Part shown: positions 5,189 through 17,495 of the stretch, piece after piece
Position numbering within the stretch: position 1 is the first letter of the stretch
Layout of the letters: each line of letters opens with the position of its first letter
Source: Dethiobacter sp.
Lineage (GTDB): Bacteria > Bacillota > Dethiobacteria > Dethiobacterales > Dethiobacteraceae
Length of the DNA stretch: 38,975 nt
Direction: 5' to 3'
Assembly: GCA_018333635.1 (NCBI GenBank)
Contig: JAGXTL010000027.1
Location: 1-38,975 of the forward strand
Program-made: the position numbers and the translations under genes
Notes under the pieces: model-generated
Told to the model about the DNA's origin: nothing
Seen by the model: the letters and a program-made list of their open reading frames with translations, nothing else
Databases searched by the model: none

Positions 5189-6811
5189 TTGAGTATGTTC
5201 TGTAACCAGTGTGAACAAACTGCCAAAGGAGTCGGCTGTACCACCCATGGTGTTTGCGGCAAAGATGCTGATGTGGCAGCGCTGCAGGATCTTTTGCTCC
5301 ATGCTCTGATGGGCCTGTCCATCTACGCAGACGAAGCGCGCAAAAACGGCATTACAGACGAACCTGCCAACCGCTTTACAGCAAAAGCCATCTTCTCCAC
5401 GCTCACCAATGTGGACTTTGACCCGGAGAAATTCCAGCAACGCATCAGCGAAACGGTATCGCTCCGCAAACAGCTAAAAGCAAAAGTCGGCAATCTTGCT
5501 TTTGAGCATCCTGCAGCAAACTTTACTCCTGCAACAGACATCCCCGGTCTGGTAGAGCAAGGCAAAAAAGTAGGGCTGCTTGCTGACGAGGAAACGGACG
5601 CCGACATCCGCTCGTTGCAGCAAATTCTCCGCTTCGGCGTAAAAGGCGTGGCTGCTTATGCTGATCACGCCGCAGTGCTTGGTCAGGAGGATGATAAAGT
5701 TTACGCATATCTGCATGAAGCTCTCATCGCCCTGACAAGAAATGACCTGGGGATAAACGACTTGCTTGGCCTAGTCTTAAAGTGCGGCGAAATGAACTTG
5801 CGTGCCATGGAATTGCTCGATGCCGGCAACACCGGCACATACGGCCACCCCGTACCGACTGAAGTGCCGCTGGGACATCTTGCGGGCAAAGCCATCCTCA
5901 TCTCAGGCCATGACTTAAAAGATCTGGATGAACTGCTGAAACAGACGGCAGGCAAAAATATCAACGTCTATACCCATGGTGAAATGCTGCCCACCCACGG
6001 CTACCCTGAACTGAAAAAATATCAGCATTTCTATGGACATTATGGCACTGCCTGGCAGAATCAGCAGAAAGAGTTTGCTAACTTCCCGGGTGCGATTCTG
6101 ATGACGACCAACTGCCTGCAAAAACCACAAGGCAGCTACCTGGACTATATCTTCACCACCGGAAATGTCGGCTGGCCGGGCGCCAAGCATGTGGACAATT
6201 ATGATTTCACCCCGGTGATAGAAAAAGCGTTGGCAATGCAGGGTTTCCCCACAGACGAAGTGGGTGACGGCGTGCTGGTAGGCTTTGGACGAAACACTGT
6301 GCTGGGTGTGGCACCAAAAGTAATTGACGCGGTAAAAAGCGGCGACATCAAGCACTTCTTTTTGGTAGGCGGCTGCGACGGCGCTAAACCGGGTCGCAGT
6401 TACTACAGCGATTTTGTGGAGAAGGCTCCCAAAGACACGGTGATCCTGACACTGGCCTGTGGCAAGTTCCGCTTCTTTGACAAGAAGTTGGGCGATATCG
6501 GCGGCATTCCCAGGCTGTTGGATGTGGGCCAGTGCAACGACTCTTATTCTGCCATCCAAATAGCTCTTGCCCTGGCTAACGCCTTTGAATGCGACGTCAA
6601 TGAACTCCCCCTGACACTCGTTCTTTCCTGGTATGAGCAGAAGGCGGTGGCAATTTTACTGACACTCCTCCACCTAGGACTGAAAGACATCTATATCGGA
6701 CCCAGCCTGCCAGCCTTTATTAGCCCCAATGTACTGAACGTGCTGGTGGAAAAATTCAACCTTCATCCCATCTCCACCCCGGAAAATGACCTTGCGCAAA
6801 TCTTAGGCTAA
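5189..6811 (+). CDS. hcp: hybrid cluster protein (hydroxylamine reductase), class I
   Basis: Cytoplasmic Fe-S enzyme that reduces nitric oxide or hydroxylamine and is linked to nitrosative-stress defence in anaerobes. The N-terminal cluster motif C-X2-C-X8-C-X5-C is present (CNQCEQ ... HGVCG), and all expected ligands of the hybrid cluster can be picked out in order: His in SGHDLKD, Glu in THGEMLP, Cys in TTNCLQ, the persulfide-type Cys in VGGCDGAKPGRSYY, Cys in LACGKF, Cys in GQCNDSY, and Glu and Lys in WYEQKA. Length of about 540 residues with two complete helical bundles marks class I. Start: TTG at 5189, eight bases after GAGAGG; ATG at 5195 is an alternative that changes only two residues. 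No Hcr partner is adjacent. Confidence 0.95.
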   Translation: MSMFCNQCEQTAKGVGCTTHGVCGKDADVAALQDLLLHALMGLSIYADEARKNGITDEPANRFTAKAIFSTLTNVDFDPEKFQQRISETVSLRKQLKAKVGNLAFEHPAANFTPATDIPGLVEQGKKVGLLADEETDADIRSLQQILRFGVKGVAAYADHAAVLGQEDDKVYAYLHEALIALTRNDLGINDLLGLVLKCGEMNLRAMELLDAGNTGTYGHPVPTEVPLGHLAGKAILISGHDLKDLDELLKQTAGKNINVYTHGEMLPTHGYPELKKYQHFYGHYGTAWQNQQKEFANFPGAILMTTNCLQKPQGSYLDYIFTTGNVGWPGAKHVDNYDFTPVIEKALAMQGFPTDEVGDGVLVGFGRNTVLGVAPKVIDAVKSGDIKHFFLVGGCDGAKPGRSYYSDFVEKAPKDTVILTLACGKFRFFDKKLGDIGGIPRLLDVGQCNDSYSAIQIALALANAFECDVNELPLTLVLSWYEQKAVAILLTLLHLGLKDIYIGPSLPAFISPNVLNVLVEKFNLHPISTPENDLAQILG

Positions 6812-7441: not shown

Positions 7442-10141
7442 TTACCAGGTAGCCGTCAATGGTGCGCTGAATTTTTCTGCCGCCTGTCCGTGGACTTTCA
7501 ACTTCCAGGAGCGCAGGTCAAGTGCCGCTAAAAGTTTTTCCGCCGCCCGTACCGGGTCAGTCTCCCAGATAAAATGGCCGCCGAAAACATCATGCGCAAT
7601 CTGCAGAAGGATTCCATTGACCAAGTCGCTGCCAAGCACAGGCGGGATAACACCTACATGAACAGGCAAGCCCATGGCCACATTCCAGGAACCGATCGAG
7701 AGGGATTTCTCCGTCATCGCCTCCGGTGCGCTGGCCACAAAAGGAATTTTAGGCAGATCGACACCTAAGTCGTCAGCTATGGCAGTCGCCAAGTCGGCTG
7801 CCCTGGTGTTGTCCACACAAGAACCCATGTGGAAAACGAGCGGCAAGCCGCCTTGCAGCTTTCCTTCATTTGCCTGCTCCAGACGCCGAATGAAAGATTT
7901 AAGACCTTCTCCCGCATAACTATCAACCGCATCGGGAGCAAGCAGGCCCAGCTTAGCATAGGCGCCGGCGGCACAGCCGGTGGCCAACAGCAAGACGTTT
8001 TCTTTTGCAAGTGCTTTGGCAATCGTCAGATAGTTATTATCCTGTGTCGTCTTTAAATTATTGCAGCCGGCAAACAGCGCTACGCCCCGCAGCTCACCAC
8101 TCTTTAGCGCCTCGGTCAACACTCTGACGGGAAGATCCGGATTTATAGCGGCAAATAACTCGTAGAGTGCCTCCAGACTAAACCCTGCCACAACCTGTTT
8201 CTTTACTGACGGGATAAAGCAAGGCGAGCCTACTCTTTCCCGATAAGAGGCAATAGCCAGGCGAATAACTTCCTTAGCCTTTTCCAACGCCTGCTCCGTG
8301 GTGAAATCCACAAAATGCGAACCGGGAATGCGCGCGTTCTGGGAAGTTGTGACAATCTTCGTTTTAAAACACTCCGCTACCGCCTGGATACTAGGCATTA
8401 TGCATTGCACGTCTACCACCATTACATCAAGCGCCCCCGTCATGATGGGCAACTCTTGCGACATAAAGTTGGTTGCAAGCGGTACCCCCTGGCGCATCAG
8501 AACCTCATTGCCTGTACAGCAAACACCCATGAGCTGGATGCCCGCAGCACCTGCATCTCGCGCCTCTTCATCCAAATCGCGCGCTGCCATCACAATCAAT
8601 TCCGACAAGAGGGGGTTGTGGCCATGGACGGCTATATTAACCTTCTGCTCGTCTATCACGCCTAAGTTTGCCTCGGTGTAAATCGGAGCTGGAACACCAA
8701 AGAGGATATCAGATAGGTCAGTACCCACATGCATGCCTGCAAAATCAGCCAAGGCCGCCTCCAGCGTCTTAAAGATAAGGCTGACCGGGTCGGCATCCAT
8801 CCCCAGATGGGTTTGGCTCATAGCCGTGGCGACTGTGTCGAAAATACTTGTGGGCAAAATATCTGTTTCCTGAAATATCCTGAACCTGCCGGCGGTAACC
8901 GTTTTCTCCACCCACTGCAGGTGGCCGTCCGCCAGGCGGCTGTACTCAGCTAAACAAAGAGCTACCAGCTCGCGCAGGATATCCATGTCGTCCCGCCCGA
9001 CGGTGGTGATGCCCATTCTTGTAGCCACAGCCTTCAGTTTTTGCGGACTGGCAATGCCGTAGTCTTTACCGGCGCGCCCTTCAACCACAGCCTTTAAGGT
9101 GAGCAGGATGTGCTTTGCGTGGTCTGAATGGGCCGCCGTGCCGCCCAGTACGGAACGAAGCAGGTTGCGCGCTACAATGGTATAAGCTGTTGCACCACAG
9201 ACCCCTTTAGGAGCCGAAGAAGTAATCTGACACGGGCCCTGGATACAGATGCGGCAGCAAATTCCGGAATCTCCGTAACGACATTGCGGCTGTTGCGCCA
9301 AGTAACGTTGATAAGCAGTATCAACAGGCATAACTGTGGCCAGCATGGCTGTAACGGCAGGATCCGCGCTTCTGCGCCGATCTTCTGCAATACTGGCAGC
9401 CATGTCCACTCCTTCGCGGTGCAGCTCGCCCGCAAAATGCAGTACGGTATCTTTTAACTCCCTGTCCATTTTCATGCTGCCGGTGCAGGGATAGTTGTGC
9501 CATCTATTGCCAACTACTTCATGCAACTTCTCATCATCAGGCACGCCCGCCAAGTTATGCGCCACAAAGTAGGCAGCCCCGCAGGGGGAACTCTGCACAA
9601 CCCTGGCTTCCTGGATCACCCCGTCCATCTTCCTGATAGCAAACAAGGGGAAGCCTATGCGAAAATGGCGGATAAACTTGTTAACTTCCGGATGAGCCTC
9701 GTTCTCCCGCAGGGCACAAAAAGGTTTGGGAAAGATGATTTCCAAGTCTGTCCCCTTAGCCTTCTGTTCCACCTGCCTGCGGGCACCACCCTGCAGCCAG
9801 AGCGGATCCTCCAGCGGCACAACCAGCGCCTTCACCCCCGCCTGGAGACAAAGCTCCGGCAGGGAGAGAAGGATGTCCTGATGCAAGTTAATGGCCAGCA
9901 CAGTATGCACACCACTAAATTGCGAGGCGGGCGGCAGGTACTGAAGCGGGTCATCTTCCAACATGACCGGCAGGTTATCAGGCTGCTCCCAAACAACGGC
10001 GATATCACGGGAATAGTTCAAATCGTACTGACGACGACACTCAGTGCAGTCTGTACATCCGGTGCAGAACTTTTCCACATCGCGCAAATGACTGAGAACT
10101 TTTAAGCCGAAGGCTCCACTATACAAAAATGCTATTTTCAC
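7442..10141 (-). CDS. fusion: DUF166-like domain + CooS-type Ni-Fe carbon monoxide dehydrogenase
   Basis: CO dehydrogenase interconverts CO and CO2 with low-potential electrons. Residues from about 265 to the end match a complete CooS: D/B cluster Cys at 287, 295, 296, 299, 304 and 315 (CRYGDSGICC..C....C), and all C-cluster ligands, His in VHGHNP and Cys in GVCCTGNE, DVQCIMPS, FAGCNN, TGCAAG and GSCVDNTR. The first about 255 residues are a separate domain resembling DUF166 (PF02593) proteins of archaea and anaerobes (FPKPFCAL, SSPCGAAYFVA, NYPCTGSMKMD), with an added C-X2-C-X2-C-X2-C at 26-35 that could bind an Fe-S cluster. CooS alone is about 630 residues; this is 899. Start: GTG 10141, eight bases after AGGGGG. 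It is the last gene of the CODH/ACS operon, 32 bases after acsC. The role of the added domain is unknown. Confidence 0.88.
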   Translation of the reverse strand: MKIAFLYSGAFGLKVLSHLRDVEKFCTGCTDCTECRRQYDLNYSRDIAVVWEQPDNLPVMLEDDPLQYLPPASQFSGVHTVLAINLHQDILLSLPELCLQAGVKALVVPLEDPLWLQGGARRQVEQKAKGTDLEIIFPKPFCALRENEAHPEVNKFIRHFRIGFPLFAIRKMDGVIQEARVVQSSPCGAAYFVAHNLAGVPDDEKLHEVVGNRWHNYPCTGSMKMDRELKDTVLHFAGELHREGVDMAASIAEDRRRSADPAVTAMLATVMPVDTAYQRYLAQQPQCRYGDSGICCRICIQGPCQITSSAPKGVCGATAYTIVARNLLRSVLGGTAAHSDHAKHILLTLKAVVEGRAGKDYGIASPQKLKAVATRMGITTVGRDDMDILRELVALCLAEYSRLADGHLQWVEKTVTAGRFRIFQETDILPTSIFDTVATAMSQTHLGMDADPVSLIFKTLEAALADFAGMHVGTDLSDILFGVPAPIYTEANLGVIDEQKVNIAVHGHNPLLSELIVMAARDLDEEARDAGAAGIQLMGVCCTGNEVLMRQGVPLATNFMSQELPIMTGALDVMVVDVQCIMPSIQAVAECFKTKIVTTSQNARIPGSHFVDFTTEQALEKAKEVIRLAIASYRERVGSPCFIPSVKKQVVAGFSLEALYELFAAINPDLPVRVLTEALKSGELRGVALFAGCNNLKTTQDNNYLTIAKALAKENVLLLATGCAAGAYAKLGLLAPDAVDSYAGEGLKSFIRRLEQANEGKLQGGLPLVFHMGSCVDNTRAADLATAIADDLGVDLPKIPFVASAPEAMTEKSLSIGSWNVAMGLPVHVGVIPPVLGSDLVNGILLQIAHDVFGGHFIWETDPVRAAEKLLAALDLRSWKLKVHGQAAEKFSAPLTATW

Positions 10142-10173: not shown

Positions 10174-11538
10174 CTATGCAACATTCTCCCGACGCTTTTT
10201 CAGCTCGTTTAGGTACTTAGGCAGGTCGCCCGCTTCCCTTGGTCCCACAAGAATTTCCCAATCAGGCAGTTCTTCTTCCAAATCGCCTTTGATGCGAGCG
10301 ACATAGCCGGGAAGAACCAACTGCTTGTGTGTCACTTTATCGGCCAAAGCCTGCTTTTTAACCATTTCCGCAATTGTTTCCGGGCCGAAGGTACCTGTTG
10401 ACCAAGCCGCCAGTACACACAAGCCGCCGGTATCTTGACAAAGCAGGAAGACAGGCAGTTTGCTGTTTTCCGCTTCGCCGGCGACAGCGTAATATGTCAG
10501 GGCAAAATTGGTAGTGACAAGCACTGCGGCGCTCTCGTCAGCCTCGTTAAAACCGTAGACTTTGCTCTCTACAGTGGGCGGCACGCGCGGGTCGGTATAA
10601 ATATCCTGACGCACCGTCAGCAAGGCCTGGAAATTTTCAGTGGAGATATCATCCAGGACAATAACGCCGGCGTATTTAGCTACGCCTGCGATAGCCAATA
10701 GCATCTGCTGTTCTTTATCAGCTGTTACTCTGGCAGCGAGGAACAAGGTCGGGAAGCCAAAAGGTCTGAATTTGTGGAGCAGGGCGGCACGATGGATCAC
10801 CGTCTGATCGAGCACAAGCTCGGCCAGGCTGCTGGAACCGGGGTCGAGTACCAGGTTTTCCAGACCGGCATCCTTCAGCTTGCCGACCAAATCTGCCAGA
10901 TTAGCCAAGCCGTCAGCGCTGGCGCAGACGGCCGCACTTTTAGCCAAGTGAGGAACAACTTGCGCATAATTGGCGTCAGTAACACAAACCAACGGGTTTC
11001 TTGACTTGCTTGCCTCATAAGCCGGCAACAAAACATCAGGCTCTGCCGCCAGCAGAATCAGACCGGCATCAGTCTCGGCCATTACCTTTTGCACCAGTTG
11101 CAGATATTTTCCGCTGTCGGCGCTGGTATGGCTTAGAGCGACTAAATCGAAGCGGGAAATCTTGTCCAAGCGTTCAAACTGCCAGCCAATCTTGGCAATT
11201 TTAGCAGAGCAAGATGCCTCCTCTTCCCCGTCCGCAATCAACAGTGCCATGCCGGGAGCACGGAAAAATGTCTTCTGGTGACGAAACATGACTTCCTCTT
11301 CACCGATAGCCACTTGCCGGGCACCTTGGCCGATAAAAACCTGCCTGATTGGCGGCTGCAGCATATCTTCCAGCTGCAGCCGCGCCTCGGCGGAAAGGTA
11401 AGTGCACTTATCGAGCGTGATTCCGGCATTGGCCAATTTCATCGCAAAAGCGAAACAGGTGGCCAAACCGCATTCCTTACAATTTTTTTTGCCGTTTTCC
11501 GGCAACATTTTCTGAATGTCTGAAGCTTTGACAGGCAT
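10174..11538 (-). CDS. acsC: corrinoid iron-sulfur protein large (gamma) subunit
   Basis: With AcsD it forms the corrinoid Fe-S protein that accepts the methyl group from methyl-tetrahydrofolate and hands it to acetyl-CoA synthase. The N-terminal [4Fe-4S] motif is intact with Cys at 20, 23, 28 and 45 (C-X2-C-X4-C-X16-C), followed by the TIM-barrel domain and a C-terminal B12-binding domain ending in KKRRENVA. Length 454 residues is normal for bacterial AcsC and archaeal CdhE alike. ATG at 11538 follows AAAGGAGG. It lies 23 bases after cdhC in the operon. Confidence 0.93.
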   Translation of the reverse strand: MPVKASDIQKMLPENGKKNCKECGLATCFAFAMKLANAGITLDKCTYLSAEARLQLEDMLQPPIRQVFIGQGARQVAIGEEEVMFRHQKTFFRAPGMALLIADGEEEASCSAKIAKIGWQFERLDKISRFDLVALSHTSADSGKYLQLVQKVMAETDAGLILLAAEPDVLLPAYEASKSRNPLVCVTDANYAQVVPHLAKSAAVCASADGLANLADLVGKLKDAGLENLVLDPGSSSLAELVLDQTVIHRAALLHKFRPFGFPTLFLAARVTADKEQQMLLAIAGVAKYAGVIVLDDISTENFQALLTVRQDIYTDPRVPPTVESKVYGFNEADESAAVLVTTNFALTYYAVAGEAENSKLPVFLLCQDTGGLCVLAAWSTGTFGPETIAEMVKKQALADKVTHKQLVLPGYVARIKGDLEEELPDWEILVGPREAGDLPKYLNELKKRRENVA

Positions 11539-11561: not shown

Positions 11562-12749
11562 TTAGAGGCGCCCGGCATTCTGCATAAATTCAGTCAATTC
11601 ATCCACATTCTGGACATCCTTCTCTGTCGCAATTTTGGCAAGCAGCTCTTCAGACACACTTTCCCGCGCCAGTTCTTTGAGAGTGGAAGTCATCCAGGCT
11701 ACGCGGTTAAAACCGCCGTCAGCAATCAGAAACTTGGGAGAGGTAAGGTACTGGACGCCGATGCCAAGATACCCTTCGTTCTGTTTGCCGCCGCTTGACA
11801 TGCCGGCCAAGGTGGAAAACGGATCACCGATTACGGTTGAGCCCACAAAATCTCTGGAAACTATTCCAAAGCCGTCCACTTCCGGGATATAGAAGACAAT
11901 TGCTTCAAAGCAACCACATGATGTGTGCGGGAAAGAGAGGGCGCTGTGCAAGCTGAACTGCGTAGTTTCACCCATGGAACGCTCGGCTACCACTTCGTTG
12001 ACGTTATCATAACCGATGCCTTCTTCATCAATAAGATTGCCTTTGGGGATAGCAAACTGCGCGCCTTCCGGATCTACCTTGGTAGCCGCCCGGCCGTCAA
12101 ACCAGTTGATAGCACCGCAGAGAGAAATGCGCTCCGGGGTGATGATGCAGACATGGGTAGGGGCAAAACTCTGGCAGAGCACGCAGCCGTAAAATTCTTC
12201 TACGTCTTCTTCGCGCAAGCCTTTGACTTTGGCATCCCTTTCCTTGTAGACTTTTAACGCCTCAGTCAGTAGTTCCTGCACCTTAGCAGGGTCGGTGACA
12301 AATTCAATCGACATTTTCTCGATAACCGGCAGTTCAGCCGTAAATAGGTCAATTAAAATCCGTCCGATCTCTTCCAGGGAATTTAATCCTTTTTTGAAGG
12401 CATTTTTGTGAATTCTAATCCAGATGTCATAGCGCTGCGCCATATGAAAGACGCCTTCAATATAGTTGATATACTGATGGACACGCCTTTCCAACACGGC
12501 TTCCAAATCCTTTTCCAGCACTTCACCCGCCACGTCTACCTTGATAAAGATGGGGTTGGAAGAGCCTTCCGGCAAGTCCTTGATATCCGGGCCGGTGACA
12601 AAAATTTTATCGTGCTCTACCTCATCTAACCCCTTAACAGTCACCAGTTCACCTTTATGACTAACATCAGGACCACCAAACTCCACATAAAAATCGCTCT
12701 TTCTGATTCTCTCTCCCTCATACTGAGGACCTACGTCTGCTGAATACAT
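11562..12749 (-). CDS. cdhC: acetyl-CoA synthase, short archaeal-type (CdhC/beta subunit)
   Basis: Catalyses the joining of methyl, CO and CoA on the Ni-Ni-[4Fe-4S] A cluster. All A-cluster ligands are visible: Cys 189, 192, 201 and 211 for the cubane, and the CGC pair at 278-280 that holds the two nickels (SFPHTSCGCFEA). At 395 residues it has only the central and C-terminal domains; bacterial AcsB is about 730 residues, with an N-terminal domain that docks on its CODH. That makes it like archaeal CdhC and fits the CdhA/CdhB neighbours. ATG at 12749 follows GGGAGG. Gap to cdhB of about 50 bases. Confidence 0.93.
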   Translation of the reverse strand: MYSADVGPQYEGERIRKSDFYVEFGGPDVSHKGELVTVKGLDEVEHDKIFVTGPDIKDLPEGSSNPIFIKVDVAGEVLEKDLEAVLERRVHQYINYIEGVFHMAQRYDIWIRIHKNAFKKGLNSLEEIGRILIDLFTAELPVIEKMSIEFVTDPAKVQELLTEALKVYKERDAKVKGLREEDVEEFYGCVLCQSFAPTHVCIITPERISLCGAINWFDGRAATKVDPEGAQFAIPKGNLIDEEGIGYDNVNEVVAERSMGETTQFSLHSALSFPHTSCGCFEAIVFYIPEVDGFGIVSRDFVGSTVIGDPFSTLAGMSSGGKQNEGYLGIGVQYLTSPKFLIADGGFNRVAWMTSTLKELARESVSEELLAKIATEKDVQNVDELTEFMQNAGRL

Positions 12750-12800: not shown

Positions 12801-13358
12801 TTACGCAGTTCCCAATTCACCGATTACGCCTTCCAAATACCCGCGCCATTTCTCCGTTTTGGTAATTATCGGCACCGCAAAATCAGCATTCGGGTGGCTG
12901 CGGCGGCAGATGGCAAATGTTTTCAGGTGCGGCGCGAAATGCTTGAGCGTGGACAAACCGCGCTCCGCCAGGTCGCACCTAACTCCGGTAAACAAAACCA
13001 AATCATGGAATCCTTTGCCGCGAACACCCATCCAGTTCTTATCTTTTAGAAAGTGAACTATTTCGATAATGTCATAAGTCGAATCAGGCAGAACTCCCAA
13101 CTCCATCATCTTTTTCTTAACATGGGCCGTAGCGCAGATAGGAATATTGCGAGATTTGGCAATATCCAAAGCAAAGTCAATTAGCAGCTTATCGCCTACA
13201 GGAGAATCGATAACTTCTGCACCAAAAACGTAGAGCGGGTTTGTAGCCTTGTCGATTATGCTTGCCGCCTCTGCCGGTTCAGACACCACCTTGGCCGCTT
13301 TAGTGCCGGTCAGGATGTTAACCTTGTAATAAGGCATGGTCATTAACTCAGATGCCAC
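12801..13358 (-). CDS. cdhB: CODH/ACS epsilon subunit, archaeal-type (CdhB)
   Basis: CdhB is the small subunit that, with CdhA, forms the alpha2-epsilon2 CODH component of archaeal complexes, perhaps helping electron transfer; classical bacterial acetogens lack it. The sequence has the DHS-like Rossmann fold pattern (NPLYVFGAEV, IPICATAHVK, FHDLVLFTGVR) and the length (185 residues) expected. Start at GTG 13358, six bases after GGGGGG; later ATG codons at 13340 or 13334 are possible. Its stop lies about 50 bases before cdhC, and it follows cdhA by 20 bases. Confidence 0.9.
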   Translation of the reverse strand: MASELMTMPYYKVNILTGTKAAKVVSEPAEAASIIDKATNPLYVFGAEVIDSPVGDKLLIDFALDIAKSRNIPICATAHVKKKMMELGVLPDSTYDIIEIVHFLKDKNWMGVRGKGFHDLVLFTGVRCDLAERGLSTLKHFAPHLKTFAICRRSHPNADFAVPIITKTEKWRGYLEGVIGELGTA

Positions 13359-13378: not shown

Positions 13379-15685
13379 TTATTTAATGGTTGCCTCGATG
13401 GGAACTTTAGTCTCATAAGTGCCGATAATAGTCGGCAAAGAAAGAACTGTCTTAGGCTTCCAGCCTACTTCTTTCAGATAGGCGATTACTTCCCGTTTAT
13501 AGACGATAGGAATCTCCTTTTCTGTCCGAACGAAGTTTTGCAAATCATCAGGCAGACCGCCAATAACCTGCTTGTAAGCAGAAATATAGCTGTTTAGCTT
13601 AATAGCGCGGCCGGGAGGCGTGTCGTTGCGACGGAAACACTGTTTAATGATGGTGACCAGCGCTCTTTCTTTCGTCTCTGTCACGAGCATCATGTGTTCC
13701 GGCGTAGGCTCTTCTGTGTTTACCACCTGTTTGGTACGGCCATCGATGACATTCCAGTCGCCGGCTTCCTTCTTACTCATGAAAAGACGGCGATATTTGG
13801 AGCCATGAGGACCGAGCACTACAGGAATGCCCCAACGCACTGCTCCGGTACCAATTGACAGCGCCTTTTGGGAATAAGGACCCCATACAACGCCGCAGGC
13901 GCCGACCCTGTTTAAAATATAGTCGGCCATCAGCTCAAAGTTGGCACGGTTTGGCAGTGTGGCAAAGATGTTGGCGATTTTAATCGCCGCGCCCACCACA
14001 TGAGCGTTGGAAACACAGGAGCCGACGTTTACAATACAACCGGCGTCAAACTCAGGAATATATTTTTCGTAGATAGTTTTACCGTCCTCATCTTTGCGCA
14101 TGGACGCAGCCATAGCCGCACAGCCGGAGAGAGTAACGATATATTTGCGCCGAGCCAATTCTTCAGCCAACCAAGCCACGTCATCGATGTCGCCGGGGAA
14201 GTTGGAGCAGCCGGCAAACAGGACTACGCCGGGGATAGTACCAAGAACGATAGGAGAGCCAACCTTCCGAATTTCCACATCATGAATCGGACCGCGGCCG
14301 GCACGTATCTTATAAGTGTCCGAAGCTGCAGCAGCCTGCATAACTTTTTGGATGGGGATATCATTGACACACGCCTCTTCACATTTAGCGCAGCCGATGC
14401 AGCGCAGAAAAACGCTGCCTAACTTAGCGAAATCGCCCTGCCTGGCCTGATTAATGGCTACGTTGATCGGCAAAAGGTTCGGACAAGCCCGGTTGCAAGC
14501 CTCACAAGTGCCGCGGCATTTAGCTGAGACAAGCGCCGCTTCTTCCTGAGTCATGATCTTCTTTCTCTCCTGGCGGACAGGCGCCAGCGCCAGCGCGGCC
14601 CGCACAATCACTTCAGCCGCCTTTTCCGAATCCAGTATCAGAAACTGCTTTTGGTTCTCAAGCATGTCCTGAAGTATTTCATCCGCCGTCTTTGCCGAGG
14701 CTTCTTCCAGTCCGTAACAAATTTTATCCGAGCAGGCAACCATCGCTGCACCCGCTTCGCTGGCCATCTGCGGAATGTCGGTAACGACGCACTGTTCATC
14801 GGTTACCACCACGTCAGCCAAACCTGCTTTCAGGAAAAAGCGCTGGCGGGAAAGAGGACCGATAACTTTGGCGCCGCTGTCATAACGGGTCATATCAAGC
14901 GCCGTACAGCAAAGCCCCGCAACCTCAACTTTATCATAGAGGTCATGCTGACGCAGATAGTCAACAATCGCATTCGCGGTGACTGCGTTATGACCTACTA
15001 CTACAATGGTAGGCTTCTTGACATCTATGGCACCCCAACCCAAATCAACCAGAGCCGTATCAGCGATTGATGTGGGCAGGCCGTAGCCGACTATTTGAGC
15101 TATGTCAGCCGCTTCCAGCGCCACATGGTCGAGCATGCCGGCGTGAAACGCCTTTGACTCAAAATCGCGATAGCTGCCTTCCTGACCCATATGGGTAGCC
15201 GAGACTAAATGAATCATTTCCCGCTCCACATATTCAATGGCTTTGCGCAGATCGCCGAGATTTTCAGGCTTCAAACCCATTACCGTTCTAATAATCGGCG
15301 CCTCTACGTTCACTTGACTGCCTAAGTCGATTTTGAAATCTTCGCCGTATTTTTCAATCAAGTGCTCAATCATATGCCGGCCGTGGGCGCCATGAGCAGC
15401 TGTGCCCATCAGGGAACAGATGAGAATCCACCTGGCCTGCTGCGCGGCAATATCAATGCCGCATGCGCCTTTCTTATCTCCCGTCAGGTCACACTTGCCA
15501 AAAGTACAGAGACAGCACAGGTCGCAAAACGGGGCGTAAAAAGGCTCATAAGTGTCCAAAAGACGGAAATCCCAATTGCGCAGATCTGTCAGTGAAGGCA
15601 TGGGCGTAGGGCCCACGGGCTCCCACTCATCGTCTGCTCTAATAATTCTTCTAATTTCTTCTTCCCTCAATTTCCCTTTGCTCAT
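13379..15685 (-). CDS. cdhA: carbon monoxide dehydrogenase alpha subunit, archaeal-type (CdhA)
   Basis: Ni-Fe CODH of the CODH/ACS complex, reducing CO2 to CO for acetyl-CoA synthesis. B/D cluster Cys lie at 54-75 (CDLCCLC....C.........C). C-cluster ligands are His 232 and Cys 259/260, 299, 493, 522 and 557. Between them sit two extra ferredoxin-type clusters, Cys 390, 394, 397, 401 and Cys 429, 432, 435, 439, the hallmark of archaeal CdhA and absent from bacterial AcsA/CooS. 768 residues, as in archaeal members. ATG 15685 follows GAGGGAGG. Its pairing with cdhB and the short cdhC indicates that the whole carbonyl module is archaeal in type. Confidence 0.95.
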   Translation of the reverse strand: MSKGKLREEEIRRIIRADDEWEPVGPTPMPSLTDLRNWDFRLLDTYEPFYAPFCDLCCLCTFGKCDLTGDKKGACGIDIAAQQARWILICSLMGTAAHGAHGRHMIEHLIEKYGEDFKIDLGSQVNVEAPIIRTVMGLKPENLGDLRKAIEYVEREMIHLVSATHMGQEGSYRDFESKAFHAGMLDHVALEAADIAQIVGYGLPTSIADTALVDLGWGAIDVKKPTIVVVGHNAVTANAIVDYLRQHDLYDKVEVAGLCCTALDMTRYDSGAKVIGPLSRQRFFLKAGLADVVVTDEQCVVTDIPQMASEAGAAMVACSDKICYGLEEASAKTADEILQDMLENQKQFLILDSEKAAEVIVRAALALAPVRQERKKIMTQEEAALVSAKCRGTCEACNRACPNLLPINVAINQARQGDFAKLGSVFLRCIGCAKCEEACVNDIPIQKVMQAAAASDTYKIRAGRGPIHDVEIRKVGSPIVLGTIPGVVLFAGCSNFPGDIDDVAWLAEELARRKYIVTLSGCAAMAASMRKDEDGKTIYEKYIPEFDAGCIVNVGSCVSNAHVVGAAIKIANIFATLPNRANFELMADYILNRVGACGVVWGPYSQKALSIGTGAVRWGIPVVLGPHGSKYRRLFMSKKEAGDWNVIDGRTKQVVNTEEPTPEHMMLVTETKERALVTIIKQCFRRNDTPPGRAIKLNSYISAYKQVIGGLPDDLQNFVRTEKEIPIVYKREVIAYLKEVGWKPKTVLSLPTIIGTYETKVPIEATIK

Positions 15686-15710: not shown

Positions 15711-16595
15711 TTAGCTCATCATCGCCTTGACGCGTTGCAAGCTTTCCGGATGGCGTAAAGTCACAATGTCGGCACCAGCCAGTAACAGGGAAAAGGCGGT
15801 GGCCGCCTCCCAAACTATTCCTTTGCCGGCGTCCTGGATAGCTTCTTTCGTTTTCCATGCCTCTTTTCCTACCCTGGCAATCAATGGAGACTGCAGAGTT
15901 TTATCGTCGTGCACGACGGCGGAGAGACGAATGCGCTCCATGGTTGAGTACGCATACTCAAGGCCATAACCGGCGGCACAAGTCAGCGGGTCGATAACCA
16001 CCCTATCCAGCGGGAAATACTTGCCCAGCCTGATATTCAGGTCTTTAGCCAGATTGATATCCATGGGAATCTGAGCAATGATGGCATGGCCATGTTCCAG
16101 TGCCGCCGAAGCTATCTCTTGATGATTCTCCTTTAATACCGGCCCAATCAGCAGATTCAGACCGCTGCACACCTCTGCCACAACCGGCAAAACGGCAGCG
16201 TCTTTCTCCTTCTCTCCCAAACCAAAAACAACCACCGGCACATTTACTGCCTCTGCCACTCTCTTTACACCGGCGGCAATTTCTGCGGCAGGCACATCTT
16301 TTTCCATACTGTTTAAAGTAAGAAAGATTAAATCAGCACCAAAGACTTCCGCACTCTTTTTAGCCCACGCCTCAGGAGAAGATTTGACGTCGGCATAAAA
16401 CTCCTGCAGCCAGGGAGTCCAGTCTGTCGGCTCACTGTCAGACACTTCCAGCGCAAATTTGAGTTGCCCTGTTTTCCCTTCAAAAGAATGGAAGGGAAGT
16501 GTGTTTTGTCCACCCGCAACGCTCTTCTTCCCTTCCGAGCCTAACACCAATTCTTTAATCTCACCCGTGTATTTCTCCAGAAAACTCTCTAACAT
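15711..16595 (-). CDS. acsD: corrinoid iron-sulfur protein small (delta) subunit
   Basis: Partner of AcsC in the corrinoid Fe-S protein; a TIM-barrel subunit without its own metal cofactor. The sequence shows the family pattern (HSFEGKTGQ, ALEVSDSEPTDW, ADLIFLTLNS, VVIDPLTCAAGYGLEYAYSTMERIRL). The length of 294 residues is close to bacterial AcsD (about 310) and much shorter than archaeal CdhD (over 400), so it belongs with the bacterial side of this mixed operon. ATG at 16595 follows GGGGGAGG. Gap of 21 bases to acsE upstream. Confidence 0.92.
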   Translation of the reverse strand: MLESFLEKYTGEIKELVLGSEGKKSVAGGQNTLPFHSFEGKTGQLKFALEVSDSEPTDWTPWLQEFYADVKSSPEAWAKKSAEVFGADLIFLTLNSMEKDVPAAEIAAGVKRVAEAVNVPVVVFGLGEKEKDAAVLPVVAEVCSGLNLLIGPVLKENHQEIASAALEHGHAIIAQIPMDINLAKDLNIRLGKYFPLDRVVIDPLTCAAGYGLEYAYSTMERIRLSAVVHDDKTLQSPLIARVGKEAWKTKEAIQDAGKGIVWEAATAFSLLLAGADIVTLRHPESLQRVKAMMS

Positions 16596-16616: not shown

Positions 16617-17495
16617 TTAGATTTCCAGCCAGGCCGGAGAATACAATTCTCGTCCCATAACAACCCTGGCTGTTTTATAATAATTCCTCTCTGTTTGCGA
16701 CATGGCTGACATGTCGAGGTCTTGCCCGTCCATTACTTTCAGGATAATATCTATAATTTCTTGCTCTTTCCCCGCATTAAGGGCAACTAGTTCTTTATCG
16801 AAGCTGTCCACGATCGCAGAGTACAGACCGGCTTTATTTAAGATTACAATAGCAACCTGATTAATAATGTGACGCAGGTCACGCGGTACACCGTTTGACA
16901 GATTAGAAAGACCAATAGTCGATTTTACGCCGGGAGCAATATCAGGCAGCATGCCCACAAATTCAATTACTTCCAAGAAATCGGACTGGCTCACACCGAT
17001 CGGCAGCATAATCGGGTCAACCCAAATATCTTCGTTAGGGATGCCAATGCTGTTGGCATAGTCGATTGTTTCCATGATTGACTCGGCGCGGGAAGCTGCA
17101 TCAGAAGGGATCCCGGCATCATTAAGCACTGAAATAACCACATTAGAGCCATACTTTTGCGCTAGGGGCATCATCTTTTCCTTGCTCTCCTGGGTACCGG
17201 CGGCGGAATTTATCAGCGGCTTCTGCCGGCAAATAGTCAACCCTGCCTCCATCGCCACAGTGTTCGTAGTGTCAAGCACAAGGGGCAGATCCACAACTTC
17301 TTGAATGTTGTTAACAAGCCAACTCATTGTTTCCGTCGGGTTCTTGCGTGCAGGACCGATGTTTAAGTCTATCCAGTGCACACCCGCCTTGACCTGTTCT
17401 TTGGCCAATTCCTGCAATGGAAGGGCGTTTCTGCCGGAGAGAGCCTCCGAAACCACCTTGGAGAGAATCTGAATGTTTTCTCCGATTAAAATCAT
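16617..17495 (-). CDS. acsE: methyl-tetrahydrofolate:corrinoid protein methyltransferase
   Basis: Transfers the methyl group from 5-methyl-tetrahydrofolate to the cobalt of AcsC/AcsD, joining the methyl branch to the carbonyl branch. It is a pterin-binding TIM barrel: WIDLNIGPARK, LVLDTTNT, PLINSAAGTQESKEKM, VVISVLND, DIWVDPIMLPIG and TIGLSNLSNG match the family, and the length (292 residues) is usual for AcsE. First gene of the operon; ATG 17495 follows GGGAGG by seven bases. Its presence implies a folate-based (bacterial) methyl branch feeding an archaeal-type CODH/ACS. Confidence 0.93.
   Translation of the reverse strand: MILIGENIQILSKVVSEALSGRNALPLQELAKEQVKAGVHWIDLNIGPARKNPTETMSWLVNNIQEVVDLPLVLDTTNTVAMEAGLTICRQKPLINSAAGTQESKEKMMPLAQKYGSNVVISVLNDAGIPSDAASRAESIMETIDYANSIGIPNEDIWVDPIMLPIGVSQSDFLEVIEFVGMLPDIAPGVKSTIGLSNLSNGVPRDLRHIINQVAIVILNKAGLYSAIVDSFDKELVALNAGKEQEIIDIILKVMDGQDLDMSAMSQTERNYYKTARVVMGRELYSPAWLEI

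Follow-up and report, generated by a model that had tools for sequence, protein, structure and literature searches.

Few known enzymes are as old as the carbon monoxide dehydrogenase/acetyl-CoA synthase (CODH/ACS), whose structure has been well studied; its CODH carries out the CO2-to-CO step of one of the most ancient carbon-fixation pathways. A hybrid CODH/ACS has been reported from NPL-UPA2 Unc8 and Ca. Desulforudis (PMC6305446), and in Hakubella SAG S03 the hybrid operon is given with the order acsED-cdhABC-acsC (PMC7325909). Firmicutes from Hakuba and The Cedars are described as carrying the hybrid CODH/ACS and retaining the bacterial AcsABCDE too (PMC9751293). As far as the relevant passages of these three papers go, the genes of the known six-subunit hybrid complex are the same as those of an operon in the DNA analyzed here, a stretch of 38,975 nucleotides from Dethiobacter sp. 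(contig JAGXTL010000027.1, hereafter the window), and the gene order given for Hakubella SAG S03 is identical to that in the window. The operon joins archaeal-type cdhABC with an acsCDE-type methyl module:

10174..11538, minus strand: acsC/cdhE, corrinoid protein gamma subunit (PRK04165, 475 bits)
11562..12749, minus strand: cdhC, archaeal-type acetyl-CoA synthase of 395 aa that lacks the N-terminal domain of AcsB (TIGR00316, 558.6 bits)
12801..13358, minus strand: cdhB, epsilon subunit (TIGR00315, 109 bits)
13379..15685, minus strand: cdhA, archaeal-type CODH (TIGR00314, 1025 bits)
15711..16595, minus strand: acsD/cdhD, corrinoid protein delta subunit (PRK04452.1-2, 332 bits)
16617..17495, minus strand: acsE-like methyltransferase (PF00809, 64.8 bits; PRK07535.1, 215 bits against a cut-off of 259)

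The main-text passages on the published hybrid operons carry no mention of DUF166, whereas in the window acsE-acsD-cdhA-cdhB-cdhC-acsC is followed on the same strand by DUF166 as the final gene, fused to AcsA. A hybrid-cluster protein gene (hydroxylamine reductase family, 5189-6811) lies convergent with the hybrid operon, and its arrangement is the same in G007 and G008, two genomes of the window's genus.

The fusion gene and its two parts are located as follows:

7442..10141, minus strand: DUF166-AcsA fusion gene, 899 aa (ORF; Pfam and NCBIfam; also in G007, G008, G010, G061, and G129)
9377..10141, minus strand: DUF166 domain, residues 1-255 (PF02593, 156.8 bits; dN/dS 0.02-0.08)
7442..9376, minus strand: AcsA (CODH) part, residues 256-899 (TIGR01702, 708.6 bits; PDB matches; tree)

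The initial annotation had described one uninterrupted 899-residue frame joining a DUF166-like domain to a CODH, and this was borne out on the minus strand by ORF analysis and by both profiles. The N-terminal part matched PF02593 (E 8e-46) far above the cut-off of 24.4 bits, and the C-terminal part exceeded the curated TIGR01702 cut-off of 478 bits. The longest form of the ORF runs from 10168 to 7442, with PF02593 at residues 14-258 and TIGR01702 at residues 268-890 of that form. The 899-aa product starts from a GTG at 10141 with AAGGGGGCAG just ahead of it, and most relatives of the gene use the equivalent start codon. No linker separates the two parts: the DUF166 end AEDRR passes directly into RSADPAV, whose counterpart in the alignment with Moorella AcsA is RTVDPAV at residue 27.

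The CODH part carries the cluster ligands at two sites:

9197..9283, minus strand: D- and B-cluster cysteines, C287-C315
7817..8620, minus strand: C-cluster ligands, H508 to C775

The D-cluster cysteines are C287 and C295, the B-cluster cysteines are C296, C299, C304, and C315, and the C-cluster ligands are H508, C542, C580, C693, C723, and C775; the catalytic Lys812 and the row of His338/341/344 are also present. Thus, every B, C, and D cluster ligand claimed at first is in place. The enzyme had been named a complete CooS; the completeness stands, but the protein is not a free-standing CooS. The best PDB matches were CODH/ACS subunits (7zkj and 1mjg, 783 and 753 bits), compared with 643 bits for monofunctional CooS. 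The nearest stand-alone relatives, in sister genera, have ~70% identity and ~655 aa and sit between cooC and acsB in a canonical acs operon. In the tree, all fused AcsAs formed one clade (100/100) that fell within the AcsAs of the class itself and joined with those of the host family; their carriers span four families (f1, f2, f6, and f40), and the unfused AcsAs of f6 and f4 formed a separate group. By PDB ranking, tree, and gene order, the CODH half is the AcsA of the bacterial CODH/ACS, grouping with acsB-linked AcsA and not with monofunctional CooS. It aligns with Moorella thermoacetica AcsA (1MJG/1OAO; 7ZKJ) over nearly the whole AcsA chain with all cluster ligands in common, and differs in having the 255-residue DUF166 domain in place of the first ~25 residues. 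In G010 and G129 the fusion immediately precedes acsB, as bacterial acsA does, whereas in the window's genus it is encoded away from acsB.

The other CODH-like genes of the window's genome are two at 48-50% identity, one at 30%, and CdhA. Given this gene content, no candidate AcsA other than the fusion is available to the separately encoded AcsB, and it would thus be the sole AcsA in the window's genus and the CODH partner of AcsB. Its AcsA part presumably turns CO2 into CO and back and hands the CO on to ACS. On contig C49 of the same genome, a 712-residue protein of the Prismane/CODH family (L171 7142-9280), ~29% identical to the AcsA part, has an N-terminal extension of ~126 residues and adjoins a Ku gene.

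A search for the same architecture in other genomes, as proposed at the outset, returned five further intact fusions with 72-98% identity: G007 and G008, G010 from another genus, G061 from another family, and G129 from another class, a genome that is 100% complete. A truncated copy is present in G081. A Hakubella single-cell contig (L051 1-3690) holds a copy with 90% DNA identity to the window, broken at both ends by insertion sequences or transposon-like sequence, which reflects either lateral transfer or a foreign contig. When 84,980 species genomes were scanned, the DUF166 clade of the fusion was found at eight loci, the hosts being, where named, Dethiobacter, Clostridium, Bacillota metagenome genomes, and Hakubella; a search of plasmids gave no match. 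The isolate codes CROMO, GPS1, and HKB of these hosts presumably denote serpentinite springs. Most carrier genomes are metagenome assemblies, which would be the ground for suspecting an assembly or frameshift artefact. We give this almost no credence, as the in-frame junction is identical in six genomes of different families, one of them 100% complete, and dN/dS was as low as 0.02-0.08 in both halves (pairs with estimable dS), indicating that both are under purifying selection.

The genome G010 points to how the fusion probably arose. Its gene order is clpC-cooC-[acsE-acsD-cdhA-cdhB-cdhC-acsC-DUF166]::acsA-acsB-acsC-acsV-acsD-acsE, with the hybrid operon placed exactly between cooC and acsA, and that of sister genera is clpC-cooC-acsA-acsB. 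The fusion probably arose where the hybrid operon inserted between these two genes. Since the fused AcsAs form one clade although the carriers belong to four families, there was probably a single fusion event, followed by lateral transfer between families. In the window's genome, contig C52 reads clpC-cooC-acsB with acsA gone, and acsA is missing at that very place in the acs operons of G000, G007, and G008; G061 has acsB without a neighboring acsA. These gene orders indicate that the fusion replaced the stand-alone acsA in the window's genus and in G061. The order in G129 is fusion-acsB-acsC-acsV-cooC2-acsD.

Two genomes, G009 and G044, lack the AcsA part and keep an intact DUF166 that ends just past the domain, with dN/dS about 0.07, indicating purifying selection. 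Because both keep DUF166 in this way, it is evidently useful without AcsA. In G009, a large deletion removed the AcsA part and AcsB is in three fragments (L032 8165-9206; L162 9202-9770), with the hybrid operon and DUF166 intact; this genome appears to be in the course of losing its bacterial CODH/ACS, though an assembly fault could give the same picture. In G044, which is 66% complete, cooC follows DUF166. We considered G044 as a pre-fusion state. It was weakly basal in the DUF166-only tree (80/64), but the joint operon tree nested both G044 (98.6/90) and G009 among the fused lineages, which weakens that candidate.

The insertion route visible in G010 is simple, and DUF166 in G009 and G044 persists without AcsA and so does not need it. 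Both points would fit a joint that is a functionless by-product of insertion, with DUF166 serving the hybrid complex only and AcsA serving AcsB only. We regard this as rather improbable: the joint was retained in at least six genomes across lateral transfer and relocation, in the window's genus and in G061 the acs operons no longer hold a stand-alone acsA, and no internal start with a recognizable ribosome site was seen near the DUF166/AcsA junction.

When hybrid operons were collected through CdhA or CdhC instead of with DUF166 as bait, DUF166 was present in all of them (10 distinct genomes): 8/8 in the window's class with CdhA as the start, and 3/3 in a 398-genome phylum sample with the ACS C-terminal domain as the start. 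In the phylum sample, 16 of the 17 DUF166-bearing genomes encode ACS, versus 100 of the other 381 (Fisher 1.6e-8, uncorrected for kinship; seven families). DUF166 is absent from the majority of genomes with ACS (100 of 116 in this sample) and is therefore inessential to CODH/ACS in general. Across the window's class as a whole the DUF166-ACS link was not significant, because a separate, stand-alone DUF166 subfamily has a distribution of its own, with no fixed neighbors and no tie to ACS within the class. The window's genome also encodes a second, stand-alone DUF166 on contig C35 (L048 8007-8732), 28% identical, which adjoins a ferric-reductase-like flavoprotein gene and belongs to a subfamily without fixed neighbors.

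In other Bacillota families, stand-alone DUF166 genes occur in Wood-Ljungdahl clusters (L178, L182, L183, L184, L185, and L188). In the acetogenic clusters checked (L178, L182, and L185), DUF166 is flanked by fhs and fchA; cooS-cooC precedes this region and metV-metF-acsDCEB follows it. We take the archaeal COG1810 (MMP0976) to be DUF166, the support used here being that M. jannaschii and M. acetivorans both have proteins matching DUF166. To our knowledge, Methanosphaera stadtmanae has no CODH/ACS. COG1810 has the same distribution as CdhB (MMP0984): the two are given side by side as common to methanogens and A. fulgidus, and both are absent from M. stadtmanae (PMC1852104). From its genome context and distribution, DUF166 most likely serves CODH/ACS.

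The position between fhs and fchA could point to the folate branch, and it counts against the adaptor role favored below, as does the subfamily without fixed neighbors or ACS link in the class. Methanogens use pterins, and DUF166 might contribute to C1 transfer or the methyl (folate/pterin) branch and not act on CODH. This is highly improbable in our judgment, as the hybrid operons lack fhs, fchA, and metF and yet always contain DUF166, either on its own or as part of a CODH or NuoE fusion.

The second fusion was found in G387, G520, and G521, a Desulforudis-like genus:

L176 9282-10544, L193 9052-10284, and L194 8750-10312: fusion of DUF166 with a NuoE-like [2Fe-2S] protein

As in the window, a hybrid CODH/ACS operon contains DUF166 joined to a partner gene; unlike in the window, the partner is a thioredoxin-like [2Fe-2S] protein, and the domain comes from a DUF166 clade that is only distantly related and has no four-Cys motif at its N-terminus. 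In these three genomes NuoF and NuoG-like proteins come after the fusion, all within the interval from cdhAB-cooC to cdhC. In G493, a free DUF166 lies between NuoG and cdhC, beside NuoEFG (L195). The NuoE fusion and the NuoEFG neighbors place DUF166 in a redox context.

Conserved residues were located in the DUF166 domain from an alignment of 24 diverse sequences:

10037..10066, minus strand: CX2CX2CX2C at residues 26-35, confined to the CODH-operon clade (7/7 F-clade sequences)
9716..9718, minus strand: invariant Cys142 (24/24)
9581..9583, minus strand: invariant Cys187, in PCG (24/24)
9485..9487, minus strand: invariant Cys219 (24/24)
9437..9451, minus strand: invariant Asp231 and His235 (24/24)

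The cysteines at 26-35, 142, 187, and 219 are present as the initial annotation had listed them. Its impression that the last three are conserved was confirmed, and further invariant positions include P138, P186, G188, and G199. The motif at 26-35 was in 7/7 sequences of the CODH-operon clade and absent from the other DUF166 sequences of the alignment, and because other DUF166 families lack it, it cannot be the core function. We therefore rejected CX2CX2CX2C as the functional site of the family. The clade with the motif is also the one whose hybrid operons lack NuoEFG, and the extra motif might replace the electron input of NuoEFG, although this is a correlation only.

DUF166 gave no match against PDB chains. 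AlphaFold2 models were of too low a quality to place the cysteines, with pLDDT 56.5 for DUF166 alone (8 sequences) and 41.7 for the whole fusion (5 sequences), and Foldseek with the poor domain model returned nothing at E <= 0.001. The fusion matches its family relatives, namely PF02593, DfsP (NF041372), and archaeal COG1810, and shares Cys142, Cys187, and Cys219 with them. It differs from DfsP in scoring far below the NF041372 cut-off (35 against 200 bits) and in having an uninterrupted frame with no selenocysteine codon, and from other PF02593 members in the added CX2CX2CX2C and the attached CODH. Selenoprotein relatives of DUF166 are listed in two selenoproteome reviews (PMC9312934, PMC13188914), and these were the only open-access articles found to name DUF166. 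No mention of DUF166 together with carbon monoxide dehydrogenase was found in the main texts of 5.4 million open-access papers. Likewise, the initial annotation knew of no described protein with this layout, and none came up in those papers.

The NuoE fusion, the cooC neighbors, and the co-distribution give genome-context backing to a putative electron-transfer or maturation role for DUF166. Our leading reading, tentative and held at slightly less than even, is that AcsA obtained DUF166 from the hybrid operon, that the fusion spread laterally, and that DUF166 is a cysteine-based redox or docking adaptor for CODH/ACS. The hybrid operon, acquired laterally (archaeal-type CdhABC with AcsCDE), ends in DUF166, which would have become the N-terminal domain of AcsA, joined ~30 residues ahead of the D-cluster cysteine, the electron exit of CODH. 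There it may connect CODH/ACS to an electron donor through an Fe-S or dithiol site, and, being tied to AcsA, one DUF166 could serve both the hybrid and the bacterial complexes. The sequences establish the gene structure, the distribution, the residue invariance and, most likely, the single origin of the fusion, whereas we infer what DUF166 does chemically, where it sits in the complex, and that one AcsA serves two complexes. A wider version is somewhat doubtful: in organisms ranging from methanogens to some acetogens, CODH/ACS would have in DUF166 an overlooked subunit for electron transfer or gating, and the fusion would be a CODH whose built-in electron entry is shared by the archaeal- and bacterial-type complexes of a single cell.

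The main rival to the adaptor is a maturation or reactivation factor, acting in metallocluster or Ni insertion or in reductive activation, in cis with its client. The Ni-insertion ATPase gene cooC adjoins DUF166 in G387, G520, G521, and G044, the three invariant Cys with the Asp and His could hold a metal, and DUF166 is retained where the hybrid CODH alone remains. However, a maturase and its client are not required in equal amounts, DUF166 is missing from many CODH/ACS-bearing genomes, and electron transfer fits the NuoE fusion and the NuoEFG neighbors better. We consider maturation unlikely and favor the redox or docking adaptor.

Neither the DUF166-AcsA fusion nor a link between DUF166 and CODH has apparently been described before, and the results suggest that DUF166 is an overlooked partner of CODH/ACS. 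It accompanies the archaeal-form CODH/ACS in every bacterial operon examined here, seemingly unnoted until now, and has been fused to two redox partners of the system. The fusion offers a direct way into DUF166 function, as a soluble protein of known chemistry that can be compared with and without the extra domain. The host is related to bacteria of alkaline, rock-hosted springs, and the hybrid operon is known from serpentinite bacteria. In such relatives of the bacteria of CO2-poor alkaline springs, two forms of one complex would have come to share a subunit.
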